Origin: a virus
Direction: 5' to 3' (one strand)
DNA length: 49,718 bases
Virus record (IMG/VR): IMGVR_UViG_3300042691_013934
Span: 1-49,718 of that record
Shown here: in pieces, positions 2,273 to 9,374 of the stretch
Position numbering within the stretch: position 1 is the stretch's first letter
Layout: each line of letters starts with the position of its first letter
Position numbers and translations under genes: made by a program
Notes under the pieces: generated by a model
What the model saw: the letters and a program-made list of their open reading frames with translations, nothing else
The model's database searches: none
What the model was told of the DNA's origin: nothing

Positions 2273-3238
2273 TTATTTTCTGATTATGTTGTTTATTTCG
2301 CGTAACACGCTGGTTTTTTCTTCTGCCGCACAAGCGCCCCAGCTTGTCAGTAAGCTGCTCATGCGTTGTTGATTTTCTGCAACAAAATTACACCTATCGC
2401 TCAACTGGTCGGCGCTTGAGAAAAACAGTTCCTGTGGAACTTGGTATCCTGAAAGCCGCACGGTGTTGCGACATTCGTCCGAGAACAGCGGCACAACACC
2501 GCAGTTGAGCGACTCATAAAATCTGTTCGCCAAATGATTGTAGTGCGTGTGTGTCTTCTCATCCTCGATGTAGAGCGAGCAAAGAAACTGAGACAGCTCA
2601 TTTCTGTCCCAATTGATTCGGTTGATGAACTTCTCTGTTTTGACTCCGGCATTTAAGAACTTTTCACGGTTCTTCCGATGCGTGCTGACCACCACATCTG
2701 CGCTCAAGTATTTGCTGAAATACTTTGCTCTGTCAGCGCGGAATGAGCCGTGATAAATGATCCCGCTTTTGCTCGCGGCACCTGCATTTGCTGGTGAATA
2801 CGCAAGCGAATTCAGGTTCAGAATATTCCAATCGTTGACGTACTTCATCACGATCTTGCTGGGCTCATGCGGATGATTTGCGATGACGTTGTATTTGCGC
2901 CCGCGCTTCACGGCCATCCACAGGGCGCGAGGTTCTCCGAGGTTGTATTCGTTCGTGATGTAAAACAACTTGGCGTTCGGGCTTTCTTCCAGCCACTTGT
3001 AATCTACAAACGAATAGTGCGAGGCATGGTTGAAAATGATGACCTCATAACCTGACTTGATCCGGTCGTTGACTCCCTCGTAAGACCAGATGAGATCAGC
3101 GCCTAAGTGATCGGCAATCTTCTTCGCATTCAGCAAATGCAGGTTGCCGGAAAGCCTCGATCCGCCTTTGTGAGAGTCGATGACCAGTATCTTGCTTTGA
3201 GGCTGCTCTGGTTCAGCGAACAGGTTCATCTGCATCAT
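2273..3238 (-). CDS. Glycosyltransferase-like protein
   Basis: The 321-residue product starts with a Rossmann-like strand (KILVIDSHKGGSRLSGNLHL) and ends with a YNHLANRFYESLNCGVVPLFSD segment. The latter matches the C-terminal donor-site region of GT-B glycosyltransferases, where a conserved glutamate in an NRxYEA-like helix precedes CGVxP. Acceptor and sugar cannot be told; phage enzymes of this kind modify phage DNA bases, virion proteins or host surface sugars. The ATG at 3238 shares ATGA with the preceding stop; ATGs at 3235 and 3229 are alternatives. No membrane segment or signal peptide is visible. Assignment rests on motif recognition only. Confidence 0.6.
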   Translation of the reverse strand: MMQMNLFAEPEQPQSKILVIDSHKGGSRLSGNLHLLNAKKIADHLGADLIWSYEGVNDRIKSGYEVIIFNHASHYSFVDYKWLEESPNAKLFYITNEYNLGEPRALWMAVKRGRKYNVIANHPHEPSKIVMKYVNDWNILNLNSLAYSPANAGAASKSGIIYHGSFRADRAKYFSKYLSADVVVSTHRKNREKFLNAGVKTEKFINRINWDRNELSQFLCSLYIEDEKTHTHYNHLANRFYESLNCGVVPLFSDECRNTVRLSGYQVPQELFFSSADQLSDRCNFVAENQQRMSSLLTSWGACAAEEKTSVLREINNIIRK

Positions 3239-3564
3239 AAAAACCTCGAAACAAGTTTTGGTTTCCACTCTGGATCAAGAACGATCCGCCAGCGACGCTG
3301 TGCATCCGCCTCTGGATAGCCAACGGCCATCATTCCCGCCACCAGCTCCGGCTGCGGCGGATACTCGGAAAACACCGCTGGCTTCATCCAAATGTACTTG
3401 TCCAGATGTGGCCAGCGATCGTTGACCATATTGTTGCTGAAAAAGTCCCACCATACGACGTTCGCGATGTAGGGCTGGACGTTCTCCGGCAGCGCCTCAA
3501 TGGCCTCAAGCCACTCCTGTGGCGAGCGTTGAATGCGTGCCACGGGCTTGTAATTAGTTCCCAC
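3235..3564 (-). CDS. Hypothetical protein next to glycosyltransferase-like gene
   Basis: This 109-residue protein is rich in tryptophan and proline (VVWWDFFSNNMVNDRWPHLDKYIWMKP). It overlaps both neighbours by a few bases, including an ATGA junction with the glycosyltransferase-like gene, so the two are probably translated together. No family is recognised. Confidence 0.6.
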   Translation of the reverse strand: MGTNYKPVARIQRSPQEWLEAIEALPENVQPYIANVVWWDFFSNNMVNDRWPHLDKYIWMKPAVFSEYPPQPELVAGMMAVGYPEADAQRRWRIVLDPEWKPKLVSRFL

Positions 3565-3754
3565 GGTTACCTCCCGCCAAGATCTGAAGGCTGCCCTGCA
3601 TCGCGAAGTAAAGCGACGTTAGGATGATTGAGATGATCACGAGCCCCTCTGTGATAGAAAGCTCTGGACTGAACGCCCGCAACGCGAACGTATCCGCGTA
3701 AACCATTGCCCAGAAGGACAGTGTGTATCCAGTAGTGTGTTTTTTTGTGTTCAT
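3554..3754 (-). CDS. Small membrane protein
   Basis: The 66-residue product begins MNTKKHTTGYTLSFWAMVYAD and has a strong hydrophobic helix, LVIISIILTSLYFAMQG, near the C-terminus; the N-terminal YTLSFWAMVYA could be a second, weaker one. The start at 3754 leaves a short gap to the previous gene, whereas the open upstream start at 3865 would overlap it by 100 bases. An inner-membrane location is likely; role unknown. Confidence 0.55.
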   Translation of the reverse strand: MNTKKHTTGYTLSFWAMVYADTFALRAFSPELSITEGLVIISIILTSLYFAMQGSLQILAGGNRGN

Positions 3755-3764
3755 AGGGTTCAGA

Positions 3765-4028
3765 TTAGATTGGGAAAAGAGCGCGAACGCGAGGACGAAA
3801 GTTTTCACTGACGCAAATGATTGCTCCCCACTCTCTTGCAATCGCACAAATTGGCTCGATGCCAAATTGTTTGAGCGTGTTTTCGATCTGTGCTGGCGCT
3901 GAATTTAGCGCATGATCGAACGGGAAAATGACCGTCTTGTTATGTTCGACCAGCTTCATCTTTGTCCGAGCTGGAAGCGTGGCGGTGGCTTTGTGGTGTC
4001 TGACTTCGATTTCGATGCAGTAGTTCAT
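3765..4028 (-). CDS. Hypothetical protein
   Basis: Taking the ATG at 4028 gives 87 residues starting MNYCIEIEVRHHKATATLPA. Alternating hydrophobic residues suggest a small alpha/beta domain (VIFPFDHALN, ICAIAREWGAIICV). The leader before it is A/C rich (CCACAACCAATAAATAT) and has no Shine-Dalgarno sequence, like several genes in this half of the window. Function unknown. Confidence 0.55.
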   Translation of the reverse strand: MNYCIEIEVRHHKATATLPARTKMKLVEHNKTVIFPFDHALNSAPAQIENTLKQFGIEPICAIAREWGAIICVSENFRPRVRALFPI

Positions 4029-4094
4029 ATATTTATTGGTTGTGGAGTTTCTTTGCTCCCCTCTGGCCACCCAAGGGATGACCAGCTCGGGAAC

Positions 4095-4310
4095 CTAGTC
4101 GATTAACTTTATGTATTCCCAATCAAGCCGCGATAGTTTGACGCGACGCTTAACGTCTGGATGATCCATTTTCACAAACCAAAAATCAGAAGATCCATTT
4201 TTCCCGTTTCTGTATTGGGTGAGTGTTCCAAACCGCACGCCCATCATCCATGCGTTAAAGTGAACGGGAATTTCAATCCTCATTCCTTTGCGTAGTTTTA
4301 TGCTGTTCAT
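4095..4310 (-). CDS. Hypothetical protein
   Basis: The 71-residue basic protein (MNSIKLRKGMRIEIPVHFNAW, later DHPDVKRRVKLSRLDWEYI) looks like a small beta-rich domain. It follows the double hairpin at 4338-4379 and precedes a spacer of 66 bases that holds nothing recognisable. No family recognised. Confidence 0.55.
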   Translation of the reverse strand: MNSIKLRKGMRIEIPVHFNAWMMGVRFGTLTQYRNGKNGSSDFWFVKMDHPDVKRRVKLSRLDWEYIKLID

Positions 4311-4337
4311 AAGATGCTTTTTATAGGTTGTTCAAGT

Positions 4338-4379
4338 GGAGCAGAGGCTCCTTGCCGCGCCCGACAGTGTCAGGCGCGG
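4338..4379 (-). other. Two adjacent RNA hairpins between genes
   Basis: Read on the minus strand, a stem of seven pairs (CCGCGCC with GGCGCGG, 4379-4355) encloses GACA/TGTC, and is followed by a five-pair stem GGAGC/GCTCC with a CTCT loop (4351-4338). They lie between the stop at 4394 and the start at 4310. No U-tract follows, so a simple intrinsic terminator is unlikely; attenuation or mRNA end protection is possible. Confidence 0.45.
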
Positions 4380-4393
4380 ACAGGAACCGCCGC

Positions 4394-5176
4394 TTATGCG
4401 AACTTGGCTTGCAGCTCTGCCAAGCGAGCTTTGAACGCCTTGCTACCCGTCCGGCCAGCCCACTTGGCGAGGATTTCAAGGACGATCGCGAGTCCGCGCC
4501 CAGAAGGCATTACCCCTCTGGCAAGCTCCTGAGCGATGCTGCGGCAAAATGAACCGCAATGCCCGTCCTCCCAACTTTCCAAAGATACTCCGATTTCGGA
4601 ACGCAGTTCGTTCACAAGGGCTTCTTCCTTCTGCTTTTCAGCCTCACGCTCAGGAGCGAGAATTGCCTTTATGATTTCGGCGGTGCGCTCGTTGTCCGAG
4701 TCTTTTCTCCACCAGTTGCCCGCAAACCACTCGCAGTAGCCCTTATCTTCGGCCAGAATGTCTTTTACAGCGCGGCCAGCGTACTTACCGCCTTGAAAGA
4801 AACTGAAGTCCGTAGCGGCCACGCGAGCGGCTTCGGCGGCAGCGCGGCGCTCGGATTCCTCGCGGCTGATGCGGGCGATCTCGTCCAAGTCAAAGTTAAC
4901 GACGCCGTCAAATCTGGCGCTCGGGTAATGCTCGCTCAGGTACGCCTTGGCCGCTTCAAGAGCCTGCGCTTTGTCGGTCGAGAGATTCTTGATGTACACG
5001 CTGGTGTCTTCTGCCCCGCCTGCGGATTCAACGGTGCCGAATTCTGTGCGCTCAAAGCGGCGCTTTGTGCCGTAAGCGCGTAGCGTGTAGAACCCGCTTT
5101 TGTCTCCGGTCGCGATGCCGAAATGCGTGATGTAAATGAGGTTTCCGCCTAAGTCGCTGAATATGATTTGGTTCAT
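4394..5176 (-). CDS. Protein with exodeoxyribonuclease X C-terminal-like motif
   Basis: The 260-residue product has an N-terminal part resembling a small substrate domain (SDLGGNLIYITHFGIATG), a charged helical linker, and a central FFQGGKYAGRAVKDILAEDKG segment followed by YCEWFAGNWW. The last pattern (F..GKY.G....D....D..Y..W) is the short C-terminal DNA-binding-like domain also found on exonuclease X proteins and as a free domain in phages. The nuclease domain itself is not present. It is the first gene behind the promoter-like element at 5177-5251, so it probably heads its own transcript. Function beyond this domain is unknown. Confidence 0.6.
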   Translation of the reverse strand: MNQIIFSDLGGNLIYITHFGIATGDKSGFYTLRAYGTKRRFERTEFGTVESAGGAEDTSVYIKNLSTDKAQALEAAKAYLSEHYPSARFDGVVNFDLDEIARISREESERRAAAEAARVAATDFSFFQGGKYAGRAVKDILAEDKGYCEWFAGNWWRKDSDNERTAEIIKAILAPEREAEKQKEEALVNELRSEIGVSLESWEDGHCGSFCRSIAQELARGVMPSGRGLAIVLEILAKWAGRTGSKAFKARLAELQAKFA

Positions 5177-5251
5177 TTGATCGATGTATGGTTAAGGTTG
5201 GCTGACAGAGAACACATTACGAAACCCAACCGATATAGCTAGATCTTTTTT
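5177..5251 (-). promoter_or_regulatory. Promoter-like element, copy D
   Basis: On the minus strand this shows A6-G, then 15 bases, TTGGGTT, exactly 16 bases, GTCAG, then CCAACC and the start codon at 5176. The same anchors occur at 6671, 7540 and 8602. Possible -35/-10 boxes (CTAGCT, TAATGT) are 17 bases apart but poor in this copy. Promoter function is inference from repetition and position. Confidence 0.5.
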
Positions 5252-5299
5252 CAAAAATCTTCATTTACTCTGTAGATTGTCTCGTAAATCGAGCAAACC

Positions 5300-5389
5300 G
5301 TCAGCAAAACGCTTCGTGATGTCAGCAAAACGCTGACTTCGGTCAGCAAAACGCTGCCCTTTGTCAGCAAATCGCTGACTTCGGTCAGG
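5300..5389 (-). repeat. 21-base tandem repeat, four copies plus a partial
   Basis: GTCAGC recurs at 5300, 5321, 5342, 5363 and as GTCAGG at 5384, an exact 21-base period. The unit contains an inverted repeat GTCAGC-AAAAC-GCTGAC. The block sits just after the stop of the gene ending at 5385 and before promoter-like element D. In one minus frame it would encode heptads with QRFAD, but that frame has no start codon. It may be iterons, hairpins or the relic of a coiled-coil gene. Confidence 0.75.
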
Positions 5390-5624
5390 CCAGCTTCCGC
5401 AGGATCATCGGCGGCACATTGGGCGGCAGCGCCTTTAGAACGCCCTCCAGAGCCTCTTGGTGGGCCTTCTCGGCTCCGGCGCGGGTGCCGGAGTACACAG
5501 CTTCCCCAAGCTGGTCGTAGTTATCGGTCAGGAGTTGGGTGACCCAGCTCCGGTGCTGACGGAAATACCAAGTCTCAACAAAGTACCCGCCTTCAGCGCG
5601 GTTGAGTTTAACGTAATGGTGCAT
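5385..5624 (-). CDS. Hypothetical protein
   Basis: With the ATG at 5624, which overlaps the previous stop as TGATG, the product has 79 residues starting MHHYVKLNRAEGGYFVETW. It is probably a small alpha/beta protein with a C-terminal helix (AGAEKAHQEALEGVLKAL). An earlier in-frame start at 5678 is open but overlaps the previous gene by 55 bases. No family recognised. Confidence 0.6.
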   Translation of the reverse strand: MHHYVKLNRAEGGYFVETWYFRQHRSWVTQLLTDNYDQLGEAVYSGTRAGAEKAHQEALEGVLKALPPNVPPMILRKLA

Positions 5625-5845
5625 CACTTTGCCTGACTGATTGTGTTGAACGCTGCAATGGCATCGGCCTTTGACCACTCATGGACGCATTGGCACCCCT
5701 CCCAGTTCCAGCCCTCCACCAGCTCGATCCAGACATCCTTGAGCGACCGCTTGCCGCCCGAGGTTTCGCCGTCGTTGTTTTCCCAATGCACCGACCGCAC
5801 ACGCGGGTCGGCCAGCAGTTGTTTCCAAGTTTTGATTTTGCTCAT
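5624..5845 (-). CDS. Hypothetical protein
   Basis: This 73-residue protein (MSKIKTWKQLLADPRVRSVHWENNDGE, later WIELVEGWNWEGCQCVHEW) is rich in tryptophan. It follows a hairpin at 5867-5893 and is translationally coupled to the next gene through a TGATG overlap. No function can be proposed. Confidence 0.6.
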   Translation of the reverse strand: MSKIKTWKQLLADPRVRSVHWENNDGETSGGKRSLKDVWIELVEGWNWEGCQCVHEWSKADAIAAFNTISQAK

Positions 5846-5866
5846 AAATGCGTTTAAAGGGTTGTT

Positions 5867-5893
5867 AAAGGGCGGAGGATCGAACCCCGCCCT
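5867..5893 (-). terminator. Strong intergenic hairpin, weak terminator candidate
   Basis: The minus strand forms AGGGCGG/CCGCCCT (seven pairs) around GG-TTCGAT-CC, followed only by TTTAAC. The short T run makes a terminator uncertain. The loop region GGTTCGATCC resembles a tRNA T-arm, but no acceptor, D or anticodon arms surround it. Confidence 0.4.
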
Positions 5894-5904
5894 GTTGGTA
5901 TTGC

Positions 5905-6669
5905 CTAGGCTTTCGCGGCCTCGTAGGCGGCTCTGGCGGCTTCGTATGCGGCGCTCAGCAACCCGAGCTTTGCTGCGCCTTCGATCAGGTCGGCGTTGTT
6001 GCTCGCCTGTGCCAGTTCAACCAGCTTTGCAACGCGGTTGGTTGCGAAGTAGGGGATGCTCACGAGCAGATGCGATTTTGGCCAGACAGAGGTGCAGTCG
6101 TTGTTGGCGGCGCATGCAGTCCAGAAGGCGTTGCGCTCAGCATACAAAGCGCCGTTAATTGCCTGATCTGCTGCGTCGGAAAACTTCTCGCCAAACTTCA
6201 CCAGATCGCGTTTTGCGAGCGCCACAGCGCCGCTCAGAGCGCGGATTCCGGTGCGGGTTGCCTTTGCGGCGGCCTGCACAGACTCAACCTCGTCAACGGT
6301 TGCCTGCGCTTTTAGTGCCCAGTTCGCGAGGCGGGCGGTTGTCCAAGTGATGTACTGCTTGCGACCAGCCTGTGCCCGCTGCTCGGCTTTCCAAGCGGTC
6401 ACTGCTGGGCATGCTTCCCATCTGCTGGCGACCGTGCGCTCAGGGCATTCAGTCGGCTTGAATGCTGCGACAGCGGCCTTGCAGCTCTCCAGTTGCGCTT
6501 CAGCGTATGCCTTGGAGACTTCCAGAGGAAGGTGGCCGGAGCCCAAGCAAGCACCCGACTGCCAGCCCCAAGCGAGCGTGTAGCCATGCTTGGCCACGCG
6601 ATTGGTGCGAGCGTCGGTTTTTTGGGTGCTTTCGCAGATCTGGCAGGTTCCGTAGTTTGTTGCTTTCAT
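5905..6669 (-). CDS. Conserved phage protein with N-terminal C-x2-C and GY motifs
   Basis: The 254-residue product opens with GTCQICESTQKTDARTN and RVAKHGYTLAWGWQSGACLG, a pattern I recall from many phage and plasmid accessory proteins (a C-x2-C pair, HGY, a later cysteine). The remainder is alanine-rich and helical, with EVESVQAAAKATRTG in the middle and an almost pure alanine/glutamate helix at the end. The N-terminal cysteines may bind zinc. It is the first gene behind promoter-like element A. Function unknown. Confidence 0.65.
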   Translation of the reverse strand: MKATNYGTCQICESTQKTDARTNRVAKHGYTLAWGWQSGACLGSGHLPLEVSKAYAEAQLESCKAAVAAFKPTECPERTVASRWEACPAVTAWKAEQRAQAGRKQYITWTTARLANWALKAQATVDEVESVQAAAKATRTGIRALSGAVALAKRDLVKFGEKFSDAADQAINGALYAERNAFWTACAANNDCTSVWPKSHLLVSIPYFATNRVAKLVELAQASNNADLIEGAAKLGLLSAAYEAARAAYEAAKA

Positions 6670-6670
6670 A

Positions 6671-6742
6671 GTGGTTTTTGGTTGGTTGTTGCTGACGAGT
6701 TAATACTTGCATAACCCAAGCAGGCTGGGAACTACTTTTTTT
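6671..6742 (-). promoter_or_regulatory. Promoter-like element, copy A
   Basis: Minus strand: A7-G, 15 bases, TTGGGTT, 16 bases, GTCAG, CAACAACCAACC, then ATG at 6669. A TTCCCA box and an AAGTAT box are 17 bases apart and could be -35 and -10. The region 6743-6859 between this element and the terminator at 6860 holds no supportable gene. Confidence 0.55.
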
Positions 6743-6859
6743 AAAAATCATTTTCCCCCTTCTGCAAGACGTTGATTTAACAGCCACTTACACAACGCAT
6801 TTTTTTGAAAAGCACCGCAAATTAGCCTGAAATCCTGTCGCTTTTTGATGTTTTAGACT

Positions 6860-6888
6860 AAAAAAAAGAGCCAGCCGAAGCTGACTCT
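6860..6888 (-). terminator. Intrinsic terminator
   Basis: The minus strand reads AGAGTCAGC-TTCG-GCTGGCTCT followed directly by eight T. The nine-pair stem with a UUCG loop and U-tract is a textbook rho-independent terminator. It ends the transcript of the genes at 7537-6912, just upstream of promoter-like element A. Confidence 0.92.
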
Positions 6889-6911
6889 CTTTTCCTGCGT
6901 TCGTAACACGC

Positions 6912-7193
6912 TTAAAACGTGCAACATCCGCAGCAAGGTGCGTCTTCGCACCGTCCGCTCCTATTGCGGTAACCCACCCATCCGGTGGATGTTACAACCG
7001 CGAAGCTGGTTCGGTTGCCACGGCTGATCCGCTGCGCGGTCGGCTCGTCCGCCACATCGCCTCCGGCGGTGCAGGCTGGGCAGGTGACCAGCCAGAAGGT
7101 GCGGCGGAACCGCGTCCGCTTGCTCAGGGTTCCGGCCCCTGCCGGAACGTGCGTCCGGCAGGTGTTGCAGTTTGATTCGTATCGGTTTGTCAT
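6912..7193 (-). CDS. Cysteine-rich zinc-ribbon-like protein
   Basis: The 93-residue product has C-NT-C near the N-terminus, CPAC in the middle and a CEDAPCCGCCTF end. The first two pairs, spaced about 27 residues apart with a basic TLSKRTRFRRTFWLV segment between, resemble a zinc ribbon. It is the last gene before the intrinsic terminator. The leader is CTAACCAACCCAACACC without a Shine-Dalgarno sequence. Function unknown. Confidence 0.65.
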   Translation of the reverse strand: MTNRYESNCNTCRTHVPAGAGTLSKRTRFRRTFWLVTCPACTAGGDVADEPTAQRISRGNRTSFAVVTSTGWVGYRNRSGRCEDAPCCGCCTF

Positions 7194-7213
7194 GGTGTTG
7201 GGTTGGTTAGTGA

Positions 7214-7537
7214 TTACAGGATCGAGTTGAGTGCCTTTTGCAGGTCGTGCCGGACGCCCGCCCGAATGCGTTGCGCCTCTTTGATGGCCTCCCCCTTGAT
7301 CTGGTCGGCCTCACGCTCTGCCTTTTGGCGAGTGGTCGCAGCAGCGGACTGTGCGCTGTGCAGCAGCTCGTCCTGAGCCTTGCGGGCGTCCGCCAGCGTA
7401 AGCAGCGGGATGAAGTCGCTCATCAGGTCACGCTCCAGTTCGCACGTTACGCTGGCCAGCCACGGCCCGAGGTAGGATGCGGTGCCGAGGTCGGCAATGG
7501 CCTTGCGGAGGATTTCGAGTTCTTGGTTCTTTGTCAT
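7214..7537 (-). CDS. Helical hypothetical protein
   Basis: The start at 7537, directly behind promoter-like element B, gives 107 residues beginning MTKNQELEILRKAIADLG. The C-terminal half is a long amphipathic helix (QSAAATTRQKAEREADQIK), likely a coiled coil. An in-frame upstream ATG at 7597 would place its start inside the promoter-like element and is rejected. No family recognised. Confidence 0.65.
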   Translation of the reverse strand: MTKNQELEILRKAIADLGTASYLGPWLASVTCELERDLMSDFIPLLTLADARKAQDELLHSAQSAAATTRQKAEREADQIKGEAIKEAQRIRAGVRHDLQKALNSIL

Positions 7538-7539
7538 GG

Positions 7540-7611
7540 CGTTGGTTAGGTTGTGGTTTCTGCTGACTCGGGCATTCTTGCATAACCCAAGCGGCACGCA
7601 AGAACTTTTTT
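7540..7611 (-). promoter_or_regulatory. Promoter-like element, copy B
   Basis: Minus strand: A6-G, 14 bases, TTGGGTT, 16 bases, GTCAG, then ACCACAACCTAACC and ATG at 7537. Candidate boxes are TTGCGT and AAGAAT with 16 bases between. The A-tract overlaps the stop codon of the upstream gene, so any transcript from the ribozyme operon would read through it. Confidence 0.55.
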
Positions 7612-7939: not shown

Positions 7940-7995
7940 GGCCTCGTCAGTGCCCGCATTACGGGTCAGACAGGGGATGGAACCCTGTTTCGGCC
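7940..7995 (-). ncRNA. Type II hammerhead ribozyme, copy 2
   Basis: Minus strand, 5' to 3': stem II strand GGCC (7995-7992); GAAA (7991-7988); stem III CAGGG/CCCTG around a seven-base loop (7987-7971), extended by the A15.1-U16.1 pair; GUC cleavage triplet with the cut expected between 7969 and 7968; stem I UG-A-CCCG/CGGG-CA with one bulged A and loop UAAUG (7968-7951); CUGACGA core (7950-7944); stem II strand GGCC (7943-7940). All catalytic core residues of the hammerhead are present. Stem II is the open stem, which defines type II. It starts one base after the TAG of the upstream gene. Confidence 0.9.
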
Positions 7996-7996
7996 T

Positions 7997-8206
7997 CTAG
8001 TACCCGTTGGCTTCGGCCCATTCCGTAATCCGATCAATGGTGTCGGGATTCACGGTGTGTTCGCCGCCAAGTGTGGTTTCAAGGAGGCCAGTATCCTGAA
8101 GAGCCGCGAGGCTTGCAGCGTACTTGCCTTTTTCAATCCAGCACTGGGTGGAGTCGTCGCAGATGGAGATTTCAACGGAGTATCCTGAGATTTTTGTGGT
8201 TTTCAT
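7997..8206 (-). CDS. Small acidic protein between two ribozymes
   Basis: This 69-residue acidic protein (MKTTKISGYSVEISICDDST, ending TIDRITEWAEANGY) has no recognised family. Hammerhead copies lie immediately before and after it, so self-cleavage would leave it on its own monocistronic RNA. The leader is ACCAACCAACCAAACC without a Shine-Dalgarno sequence. The stop codon TAG is one base from the start of ribozyme 2. Confidence 0.65.
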   Translation of the reverse strand: MKTTKISGYSVEISICDDSTQCWIEKGKYAASLAALQDTGLLETTLGGEHTVNPDTIDRITEWAEANGY

Positions 8207-8239
8207 TGGTGGGTAGGTTTGGTTGGTTGGTTCTCTGAC

Positions 8240-8289
8240 GGCCTCGTCAGTGGCGGCATTACCGCCAGACGCCCGAAGGCGTTTCGGCC
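8240..8289 (-). ncRNA. Type II hammerhead ribozyme, copy 1
   Basis: Minus strand, 5' to 3': stem II strand GGCC (8289-8286); GAAA (8285-8282); stem III CGCC-UUCG-GGCG (8281-8270) plus the A15.1-U16.1 pair; GUC triplet, cut expected between 8268 and 8267; stem I UGGCGG/CCGCCA with loop UAAUG (8267-8251); CUGACGA core (8250-8244); stem II strand GGCC (8243-8240). Every conserved core base is present. Stems III and I differ in sequence from copy 2 yet pair well, and the stem I loop is identical. It abuts the TAA of the upstream gene and lies 34 bases before the next ATG. Confidence 0.92.
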
Positions 8290-8601
8290 TTAGTTTGCAA
8301 TGCCGTGGAACTCGCGTCCAAGGTCATCGTTTGCAATTGGAGTAGCTTGGGCGGCTGCTGTAAGGCGCTCATTATTTTCCCAACCGACAAGCAGTTGATT
8401 TACGAAGGATTTGGCGTCTCCGAAACTAAAAGCGATTTCGAGAGGATTATCGTTGCCGATGCCATATACATACCAAACGACTGCCTGAAGCTCAGGATCG
8501 AGCAGCCACTTCTGATCGAATGATTTAATAATGTAACCACGGTAAGCGTAGTGGCCTTTTGCGATGCGTTTTGCGGTGTGTTTTACGGTTTGTTTTTTCA
8601 T
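8290..8601 (-). CDS. Hypothetical protein, first gene of ribozyme operon
   Basis: The ATG at 8601 follows promoter-like element C and gives 103 residues beginning MKKQTVKHTAKRIAKGHYAYRG. A basic N-terminus precedes a compact alpha/beta part (YIIKSFDQKWLLDPELQAVVW) and helices. A longer form from 8709 would start inside the terminator hairpin and is rejected. Ribozyme 1 begins right after its stop. Function unknown. Confidence 0.6.
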   Translation of the reverse strand: MKKQTVKHTAKRIAKGHYAYRGYIIKSFDQKWLLDPELQAVVWYVYGIGNDNPLEIAFSFGDAKSFVNQLLVGWENNERLTAAAQATPIANDDLGREFHGIAN

Positions 8602-8674
8602 GTCTGTGTTTGTGTTGGTTGTTACTGACGAGACCAATCTTCCATAACCCAACCGAAGCCTCAACAACTTTTTT
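8602..8674 (-). promoter_or_regulatory. Promoter-like element, copy C
   Basis: Minus strand: A6-G, 15 bases, TTGGGTT, 16 bases, GTCAG, AACAACCAACAC, then ATG at 8601. TTGAGG and AAGATT are 17 bases apart and could be -35 and -10. It lies directly behind an intrinsic terminator, the expected place for a promoter that restarts transcription. Confidence 0.6.
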
Positions 8675-8684
8675 CGCAATAAAC

Positions 8685-8726
8685 CAAAAAAAACGCGCAA
8701 CACCCACAATTTGCGGATGTTACGCG
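8685..8726 (-). terminator. Intrinsic terminator after the replication genes
   Basis: The minus strand forms a twelve-pair stem with two G-U pairs (8726-8715 with 8705-8694) and is followed by eight T. It lies about 20 bases after the stop of the DnaC-like gene and ends the DNA-metabolism transcript. Confidence 0.9.
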
Positions 8727-8747
8727 ATGTAATTTTTTTTGATTTTC

Positions 8748-9374
8748 TTATTTCTGAGCCCGAAATGAACCCCAGTTTGCCTCCGCAATTCCGCCTCCTT
8801 CGCGGATTCTGTCGGTAATGCTTGGCCCAACATGCTTTATGAATTCGGCAGGCGTCTGATTACCCAGCAGAATTGTGTCCTTCATATCTCCGTATCTGCG
8901 GTCAACCAAGTGGGTTAGCAATGTATCTCCCCAGTCGCTTTGGTTACGTTCTTGAACCTCGTCAATGATCAGCAGCGACGGTCGAACGAACTGGTCGATG
9001 GCGGCCCGTTCCGAGGTCTTTGAGCTGAAGGATTCTTTGACCTCCAAGAAAAACCCCAGCGCCGTTGTGTAGACGGGCCTTCTACCCGCCTCTGCCACCC
9101 GTCTCGATAGATGACAGCCAAGTTGCGTCTTGCCCGTGCCACGCGGCCCCACAACCGCCAGCACCACTCCAGTGCCGAGCTTTTCGCTCATCCGGCGGTA
9201 CAGGTCGAGCCACCCATCTCCAGTCGGTTCGGCTTGGAGTTGATGCCGCTTGGGTATTCCGCTTTCGGACATATACTTAGCCAAGTTAACCGTCCGCGCC
9301 CGTTGCTCGGCTTCGCGCTCTCTGGCTGCCATTTCCTCTGCATTAAAACTTTGGAACGTCTTGAGATTCAGCAT
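8748..9374 (-). CDS. DnaC-like AAA+ helicase loader
   Basis: The 208-residue protein has a charged helical N-terminus, a Walker A motif VVGPRGTGKTQ near residue 75, and a Walker B motif LLIIDEV near residue 135, followed by a GNQTP sensor 1 segment and a C-terminal SITDRI-EGG segment that includes the arginine sensor region. This is the order seen in DnaC/IstB-type ATPases, which load the replicative helicase. It overlaps the DUF1376 gene by 32 bases, a common pairing of initiator-like and loader proteins in phages. No helicase gene is in the window, so a host or distant phage helicase is the likely partner. Confidence 0.85.
   Translation of the reverse strand: MLNLKTFQSFNAEEMAAREREAEQRARTVNLAKYMSESGIPKRHQLQAEPTGDGWLDLYRRMSEKLGTGVVLAVVGPRGTGKTQLGCHLSRRVAEAGRRPVYTTALGFFLEVKESFSSKTSERAAIDQFVRPSLLIIDEVQERNQSDWGDTLLTHLVDRRYGDMKDTILLGNQTPAEFIKHVGPSITDRIREGGGIAEANWGSFRAQK

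Follow-up and report, generated by a model that had tools for sequence, protein, structure and literature searches.

The window discussed here, a complete IMG/VR virus record 49.7 kb long, includes two type II hammerhead ribozymes in which the catalytic strand has a second partner, a short RUCAG arm located just 3' of the motif that covaries with it among relatives. The pairing between arm and catalytic strand is established by the sequence data, timing aside. That the catalytic strand has a covarying partner speaks directly, on evolutionary grounds, for a second functional state of the RNA. Probably this RNA undergoes a single self-cleavage, after which it refolds to a form that would neither cut nor rejoin.

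Structure and location of the two hammerheads

The minus strand carries all the genes annotated in the window. Three small ORFs (8601-8290, 8206-7997, and 7906-7610) follow a group of phage replication genes, and both gaps between them are filled by one complete type II hammerhead each, named copy A and copy B. The features of this region are listed below; R1 is a covariance model built from 51 aligned relatives, none of them from the window.

13263-12202, minus strand: exonuclease, phage replication gene near the hammerheads
12158-11277, minus strand: Sak4-like protein, phage replication gene near the hammerheads
10089-9343, minus strand: primosomal/DUF1376 protein, phage replication gene near the hammerheads
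9374-8748, minus strand: DnaC-like loader, phage replication gene near the hammerheads
8601-8290, minus strand: small ORF of 103 aa upstream of copy A; its UAA stop codon (8292-8290) abuts stem II
8290-8240, minus strand: hammerhead A, type II, from sequence and model R1 (79.1 bits, E 1.7e-18)
8250-8235, minus strand: candidate alternative hairpin CUGACG-AGGC-CGUCAG of copy A, from its energy (-7.1 kcal/mol) and covariation
8239-8235, minus strand: arm GUCAG of copy A, complementary to core CUGAC
8206-7997, minus strand: ORF of 69 aa between the hammerheads; its AUG is 33 nt past copy A
7996-7940, minus strand: hammerhead B, type II, from sequence and model R1 (65.4 bits, E 5.8e-15)
7950-7935, minus strand: candidate alternative hairpin of copy B, from folding energy and covariation
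7939-7935, minus strand: arm GUCAG of copy B, complementary to core CUGAC
7906-7610, minus strand: TreK-like ORF of 98 aa (PF24229, E 2.7e-15); its AUG is 33 nt past copy B

Copy A starts with A(-1) at 8290, followed by stem II GGCC (8289-8286), GAA, and A15.1 (8282). Its stem III, CGCC/UUCG/GGCG, is located within 8282-8269, with U at 8269 and C17 at 8268, and stem I, UGGCGG/UAAUG/CCGCCA (8267-8251), leads to the core strand CUGACGA (8250-8244) and GGCC (8243-8240). Copy B consists of A(-1) at 7996, stem II GGCC (7995-7992), GAA, A at 7988, stem III CAGGG/UUCCAUC/CCCUG within 7988-7970, U at 7970, C17 at 7969, stem I (7968-7951) with a bulged A at 7966, the core strand CUGACGA (7950-7944), and GGCC (7943-7940). 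The hammerhead core is complete in both copies (CUGACGA, GAAA, the A15.1-U16.1 pair, and the GUC cleavage triplet), and both have the type II topology, with loops closing stems I and III and stem II open.

The earlier note on this DNA had described a complete core in both minus-strand gaps and an assignment to type II with an open stem II, and the sequence together with the R1 scores bears it out. It was also right that stems I and III differ between the copies and still pair, with the bulged A at 7966 left unmentioned, and that the stem I loop UAAUG is identical in both. The predicted cleavage points 3' of C17, after 8268 in copy A and after 7969 in copy B, had been placed correctly as well. 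Three features were absent from that description: the GUCAG 3' extension, the invariant A that precedes stem II, and the location of the 5' edge at a stop codon.

The third-best match of R1 in the window had an E value of only 0.03. The Rfam hammerhead models, which had been proposed as a check with a score under threshold counting against the claim, gave another picture. With Hammerhead_II (RF02276) copy B reached 29.8 bits, under the gathering score of 37, which is a search cut-off and not a structural definition, and copy A was unlisted at E<=1. Taken literally this outcome goes against the claim, which is upheld by R1. Since the R1 scores are high and two hammerheads of the same design in a relative, L203, score 40.0 and 39.2 bits with Rfam, above the cut-off, the shortfall is a fault of the threshold and not of the motif. 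The Rfam Hammerhead_II model under-reports the common GGCC subfamily.

Among the 51 relatives, 98.7% of the cells in stems I and III were paired, the covariation score was 0.53 versus 0.11 for shuffled data, and there were 144 double changes versus 37 in shuffles. Changes on both sides with pairing kept were found at all six pairs of stem I and at three of the five pairs of stem III; stem II is invariant in this set because GGCC was a selection criterion. With a strict descriptor (stem II of at least 3 bp, stems I and III of at least 4 bp, a UH site, and a complete core), the 2.98 Mb of fetched loci yielded 312 distinct copies and their block-shuffled counterparts 0; the second number is the informative one, because the loci were fetched by hammerhead pattern. 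The 24-mer that runs across core and tail is present two times in the window, and 100 shuffles produced not one.

The upstream ORF ends within 21 nt in 71 of 72 arm-bearing copies. Its stop codon is at -1 or 0 nt in 45 of these 71, -1 corresponding to a UAG that shares its G with stem II, and random positions in the same loci gave a flat stop-distance distribution. The distance from stem II to the next AUG has a median of 31 nt (quartiles 27-33). Copies without the arm show the same stop-codon placement. A conserved neighbor gene was rejected as the explanation, as the 553 flanking proteins form 402 clusters, 311 of them singletons; because the neighboring genes are very diverse, the element can be considered gene-independent punctuation. 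In the window, the UAG stop codon of the 69-aa ORF is 1 nt ahead of stem II of copy B, and a family search with this ORF gave no match. The 103-aa protein has homologues in L080, L093, L043, L282, L295, L312, and L316, located directly 5' of hammerheads in six other loci, and this family and the hammerhead possibly constitute a gene-plus-ribozyme cassette.

Covariation of the 3' arm with the catalytic strand

The alternative hairpin includes 6 bp and has the general form CUGAYG-AGGC-CRUCAG; by sequence, it and the hammerhead fold are mutually exclusive. Core position 7 is the sole free base in CUGANGA and therefore offers a test of the pairing. A search for NUCAG within 16 nt of the tail's start in 231 distinct relatives found C7 with G 41 times, with U once, and never with A, and U7 with A 36 times and with G once (Fisher p 1.7e-21, a value that is overstated because the sequences are related). 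The result was replicated in loci from two further viral scans (C7-G 20, C7-A 0, U7-A 3, U7-G 1), and for all 312 distinct hammerheads the counts were 58 for C7 with G, 0 for C7 with A, 39 for U7 with A, and 2 for U7 with a wobble G.

Independent covariation events are far fewer than the sequences counted, these being related. Grouping the 99 arm-bearing copies by flank similarity produced 18 clusters, nine with U-A only, seven with C-G only, one with both, and one with U-G, so that 17 of the 18 include Watson-Crick combinations only. The paired change can also be followed between close relatives: L037 and L260 are 85% identical across hammerhead and flanks, yet C7/G in one is U7/A in the other. 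In the 51-sequence alignment only the R position of the arm counts as a test, because its UCAG part was a selection criterion.

The spacing of the arm ranges from 0 to 9 nt. Where it is displaced by 1 nt the added base is C in 12 of 12 cases and pairs with G8, and where it is displaced by 4 nt or more, UC or UU mostly stands before it, so that G8 and A9 are paired as well. About a third of the 312 hammerheads have the arm and two thirds do not. Matching arms (UUCAG or CUCAG) were found in 0 of the 29 copies with A or G at position 7, and the covariation is consequently shown for two states only.

An exhaustive scan with the U7 hairpin 16-mer returned 42 stretches, 26 of them with hammerheads and 16 chance-like, none of these 16 having a hammerhead. 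As the non-hammerhead matches look like chance, the U7 hairpin is tied to the ribozyme, and stand-alone use of the hairpin was rejected on the same scan. That GUCAG marks phage leaders in general was also rejected: the frequency of each RUCAG pentamer among other leaders is only about 1-4%, although four leaders of the window that lack a hammerhead do carry the motif. Other pairings of the tail fared no better. Matches of at least 4 bp between loop I and tail occur in 10% of the arm class and 7% of the rest, the same as in shuffled sequences, which does away with GUCAG as the strand of a loop I-tail pseudoknot; lengthening of stem II by the 5' flank and tail is at about the shuffled level, and pairing of the core with the 5' flank is below it. 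With the published loop I pseudoknot not formed in the GGCC subfamily, the tail is free for another task. A(-1) is kept in 311 of the 312 copies, and loop I opens with U in all 255 of the 255 loops of standard type, which is consistent with another tertiary contact, from the stem I loop to the stem II side.

Several variants were observed. In L203 (about 8596-8963) there are two adjacent hammerheads, one with U7 and AUCAG and one with C7 and stem II GGUC; in the latter, stem II itself provides GUCAG (CUGAC-GAG-GUCAG). The L091 leader CTGACGATGGCCGTCAG has the look of a decayed hammerhead reduced to its 3' half, hairpin arm included, and some arm-less copies (e.g., L003, L044, and L103) have a second recurrent type of tail after stem II, AGNNGYCTC-like. 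Four minus-strand leaders of the window that have no hammerhead (8652-8626, 7590-7563, 6719-6692, and about 5228-5201) share TTGGGTT(ATG or TCG)-N14-TCAG; they are SD-less, of the AACCAACC type, with UCAG around positions -27 to -30 relative to AUG, and the shared motif is probably a phage promoter. Two of the four read CTCGTCAG; as this sequence is fully complementary to the hammerhead core CTGACGAG, pairing in trans with the core is conceivable.

Proposed refolding after cleavage and alternative explanations

Folding energies, computed without tertiary contacts, place the three-hairpin form of the uncut RNA at a median of 0.8 kcal/mol below the hammerhead fold, and it is lower in 58 of 78 cases. 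Once the RNA is cut and the hairpin has formed, the cost of separating the products at 1 M would be about 1.7 kcal/mol; by arithmetic from the hairpin energy, it would be about 7 kcal/mol higher without the hairpin, the energy of the product complex being model-dependent. In these calculations the hairpin would thus take away the greater part of the energy by which the products stay bound to each other after cutting.

We favor, with modest confidence, cutting during transcription followed by a refolding that sets the products free, prevents their re-ligation, and leaves the downstream mRNA capped. The core and stems shown by sequence and covariation, GGCC-GAAA, stem III, stem I, and CUGACGA-GGCC, would form the active ribozyme, which may be held by a contact between loop I and A(-1) and not by the published loop I-tail pseudoknot. 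The polycistronic phage mRNA would be cut between two genes as it is transcribed, 3' of C17. The catalytic strand would then pair with the RUCAG extension to generate CUGAYG-AGGC-CRUCAG, a step in which the partners are shown by covariation and the timing is presumed. The energies suggest that this refolding would dissolve stem II, so that the products would separate and no re-ligation would take place. The upstream mRNA would run a few nucleotides past its stop codon and terminate, with a 2',3'-cyclic phosphate, in the GC-rich hairpin of stem III. The downstream mRNA would begin about 26 nt ahead of its start codon, with a 5'-OH located within a pair of abutting hairpins. Both ends would presumably be poor substrates for exonucleases and for the 5'-monophosphate-dependent RNase E, and the net effect would be an irreversible, enzyme-free processing to separate end-protected mRNAs. 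The arm is not needed for intergenic processing as such, since two thirds of the copies are without it.

Because the folds of the uncut RNA are nearly iso-energetic, the hairpin could equally stop cleavage. It would then be a regulated inactive state that forms before cutting, in an attenuator-like arrangement with cleavage replacing termination: a ribosome terminating at the stop codon would cover GGCCGAAA, the core strand would pair with RUCAG, and the mRNA would remain uncut, while in the absence of translation the ribozyme would fold and cut. The stop codon abutting or overlapping stem II in most copies, the difference of no more than about 1 kcal/mol between the two folds before cleavage, and their mutual exclusion all agree with such a switch. 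However, the arm-less copies share the same stop-codon placement, and the GGCC of stem II is transcribed ahead of the arm, so that a fast ribozyme could cut first; we regard this explanation as rather unlikely. It appears improbable that processing is that of a plain hammerhead and that the arm is a stabilizing or protein-binding hairpin at the 5' end of the downstream mRNA with no effect on the ribozyme. The absence of the arm from two thirds of the copies and the narrow range of hairpin-AUG distances would fit this explanation, but the U7 hairpin without a hammerhead is not above chance, and the hairpin always recruits the catalytic strand and never another sequence. That the covariation reflects a DNA-level palindrome, an operator or recombination site, and not RNA pairing is very improbable: CTGACGAGGCCGTCAG is also a DNA inverted repeat, but G-U is tolerated in the arms (U7-G twice, GTTAG or GTCGG with C7 four times), the arm spacing is variable, and the element occurs strictly with the hammerhead and in the same orientation.

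A broader proposition, which we hold to be doubtful at present, is that these elements are a widespread two-state class in which the catalytic strand is shared by a ribozyme and a co-evolved hairpin, the 5' edge is fused to a stop codon, and refolding gates cutting or makes it irreversible, possibly in response to ribosome passage. If true, this would be a natural protein-free, translation-coupled switch for intergenic processing. The covariation reduces the question to position 7 and the arm base, and exact 5'-OH ends, at 8267 and 7968, are predicted for infected cells.

Relation to known systems and distribution

The two copies resemble the published type II hammerheads (RF02276; PMC3088659) in the core, the GUC site, the closed stems I and III, and the open stem II, as well as in their clusters between phage or prophage genes with diverse neighbors. 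A loop I-tail pseudoknot is found in the majority of published type II hammerheads, not in all, and unlike most of them the subfamily of the window does not have it above chance. Other differences are a 4-bp GGCC stem II, the invariant A(-1), the U in loop I, a tail that pairs with the catalytic strand, and Rfam scores below or near the cut-off. No description of a core-pairing tail or of a fusion to the stop codon was found in the open-access literature, and what lies just 3' of the motif, the core-pairing extension, appears to be new.

Viroid and satellite hammerheads fold during transcription and have competing inactive folds (review PMC3185496). The phage elements resemble them in that catalysis would be tied to co-transcriptional folding with a competing inactive fold, and differ in that this fold is a built-in local 6-bp hairpin in the mRNA of a DNA phage and that no circularization is implied.

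The early polycistronic mRNA of T7 is processed by RNase III to smaller mRNAs with protective hairpin ends. This processing depends on a protein and leaves 5'-phosphate and 3'-OH ends. By analogy, the intergenic cuts of the hammerheads would also lead to smaller mRNAs with protective hairpin ends, although their predicted ends are 5'-OH and 2',3'-cyclic phosphate.

Two hammerheads punctuating consecutive genes had been considered unusual. Clusters of type II hammerheads between phage or prophage genes have already been published, one array being cleaved in vivo (Perreault 2011, PMC3088659), so that hammerhead arrays between phage genes are a known arrangement. The window has this feature, several hammerheads flanking single genes on the sense strand, with two copies. 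There were two or more hammerheads in 38 of the 247 fetched hammerhead loci, and the phage IMGVR_UViG_3300038412_000035 carries 11 of type II within 5 kb (about 2571-7559), the largest array among the matches listed. One pattern scan located the motif in at least 119 stretches of viral contigs, the matches of the C7-only and U7-only scans are likewise lower bounds, and type II hammerheads between genes are present in well over 100 phage contigs.

Named genomes and MAGs that carry the motif include Spartobacteria, Asticcacaulis, Singulisphaera, and Synergistales. As to the host, comparison of proteins with phage records gave only weak and scattered matches, and none for two large structural proteins. 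The closest relatives of the window among the matches listed are L119, with 12 shared genes, and L004, with 11. A Spartobacteria MAG contig, L125, has replication genes 43-53% identical to those of the window plus a hammerhead, which makes a member of the Verrucomicrobia a reasonable guess for the host, though an unproven one.

A search of the window for tRNAs found none, and the other Rfam matches in it (ceN48, mraW, and Histone3) were rejected with scores far under their cut-offs. The window also includes a single ORF of 2982 codons on the minus strand (24130-15182) and, between ORFs at 5300-5383, iteron-like tandem 21-nt repeats, GTCAGCAAAACGCTGACTTCG.
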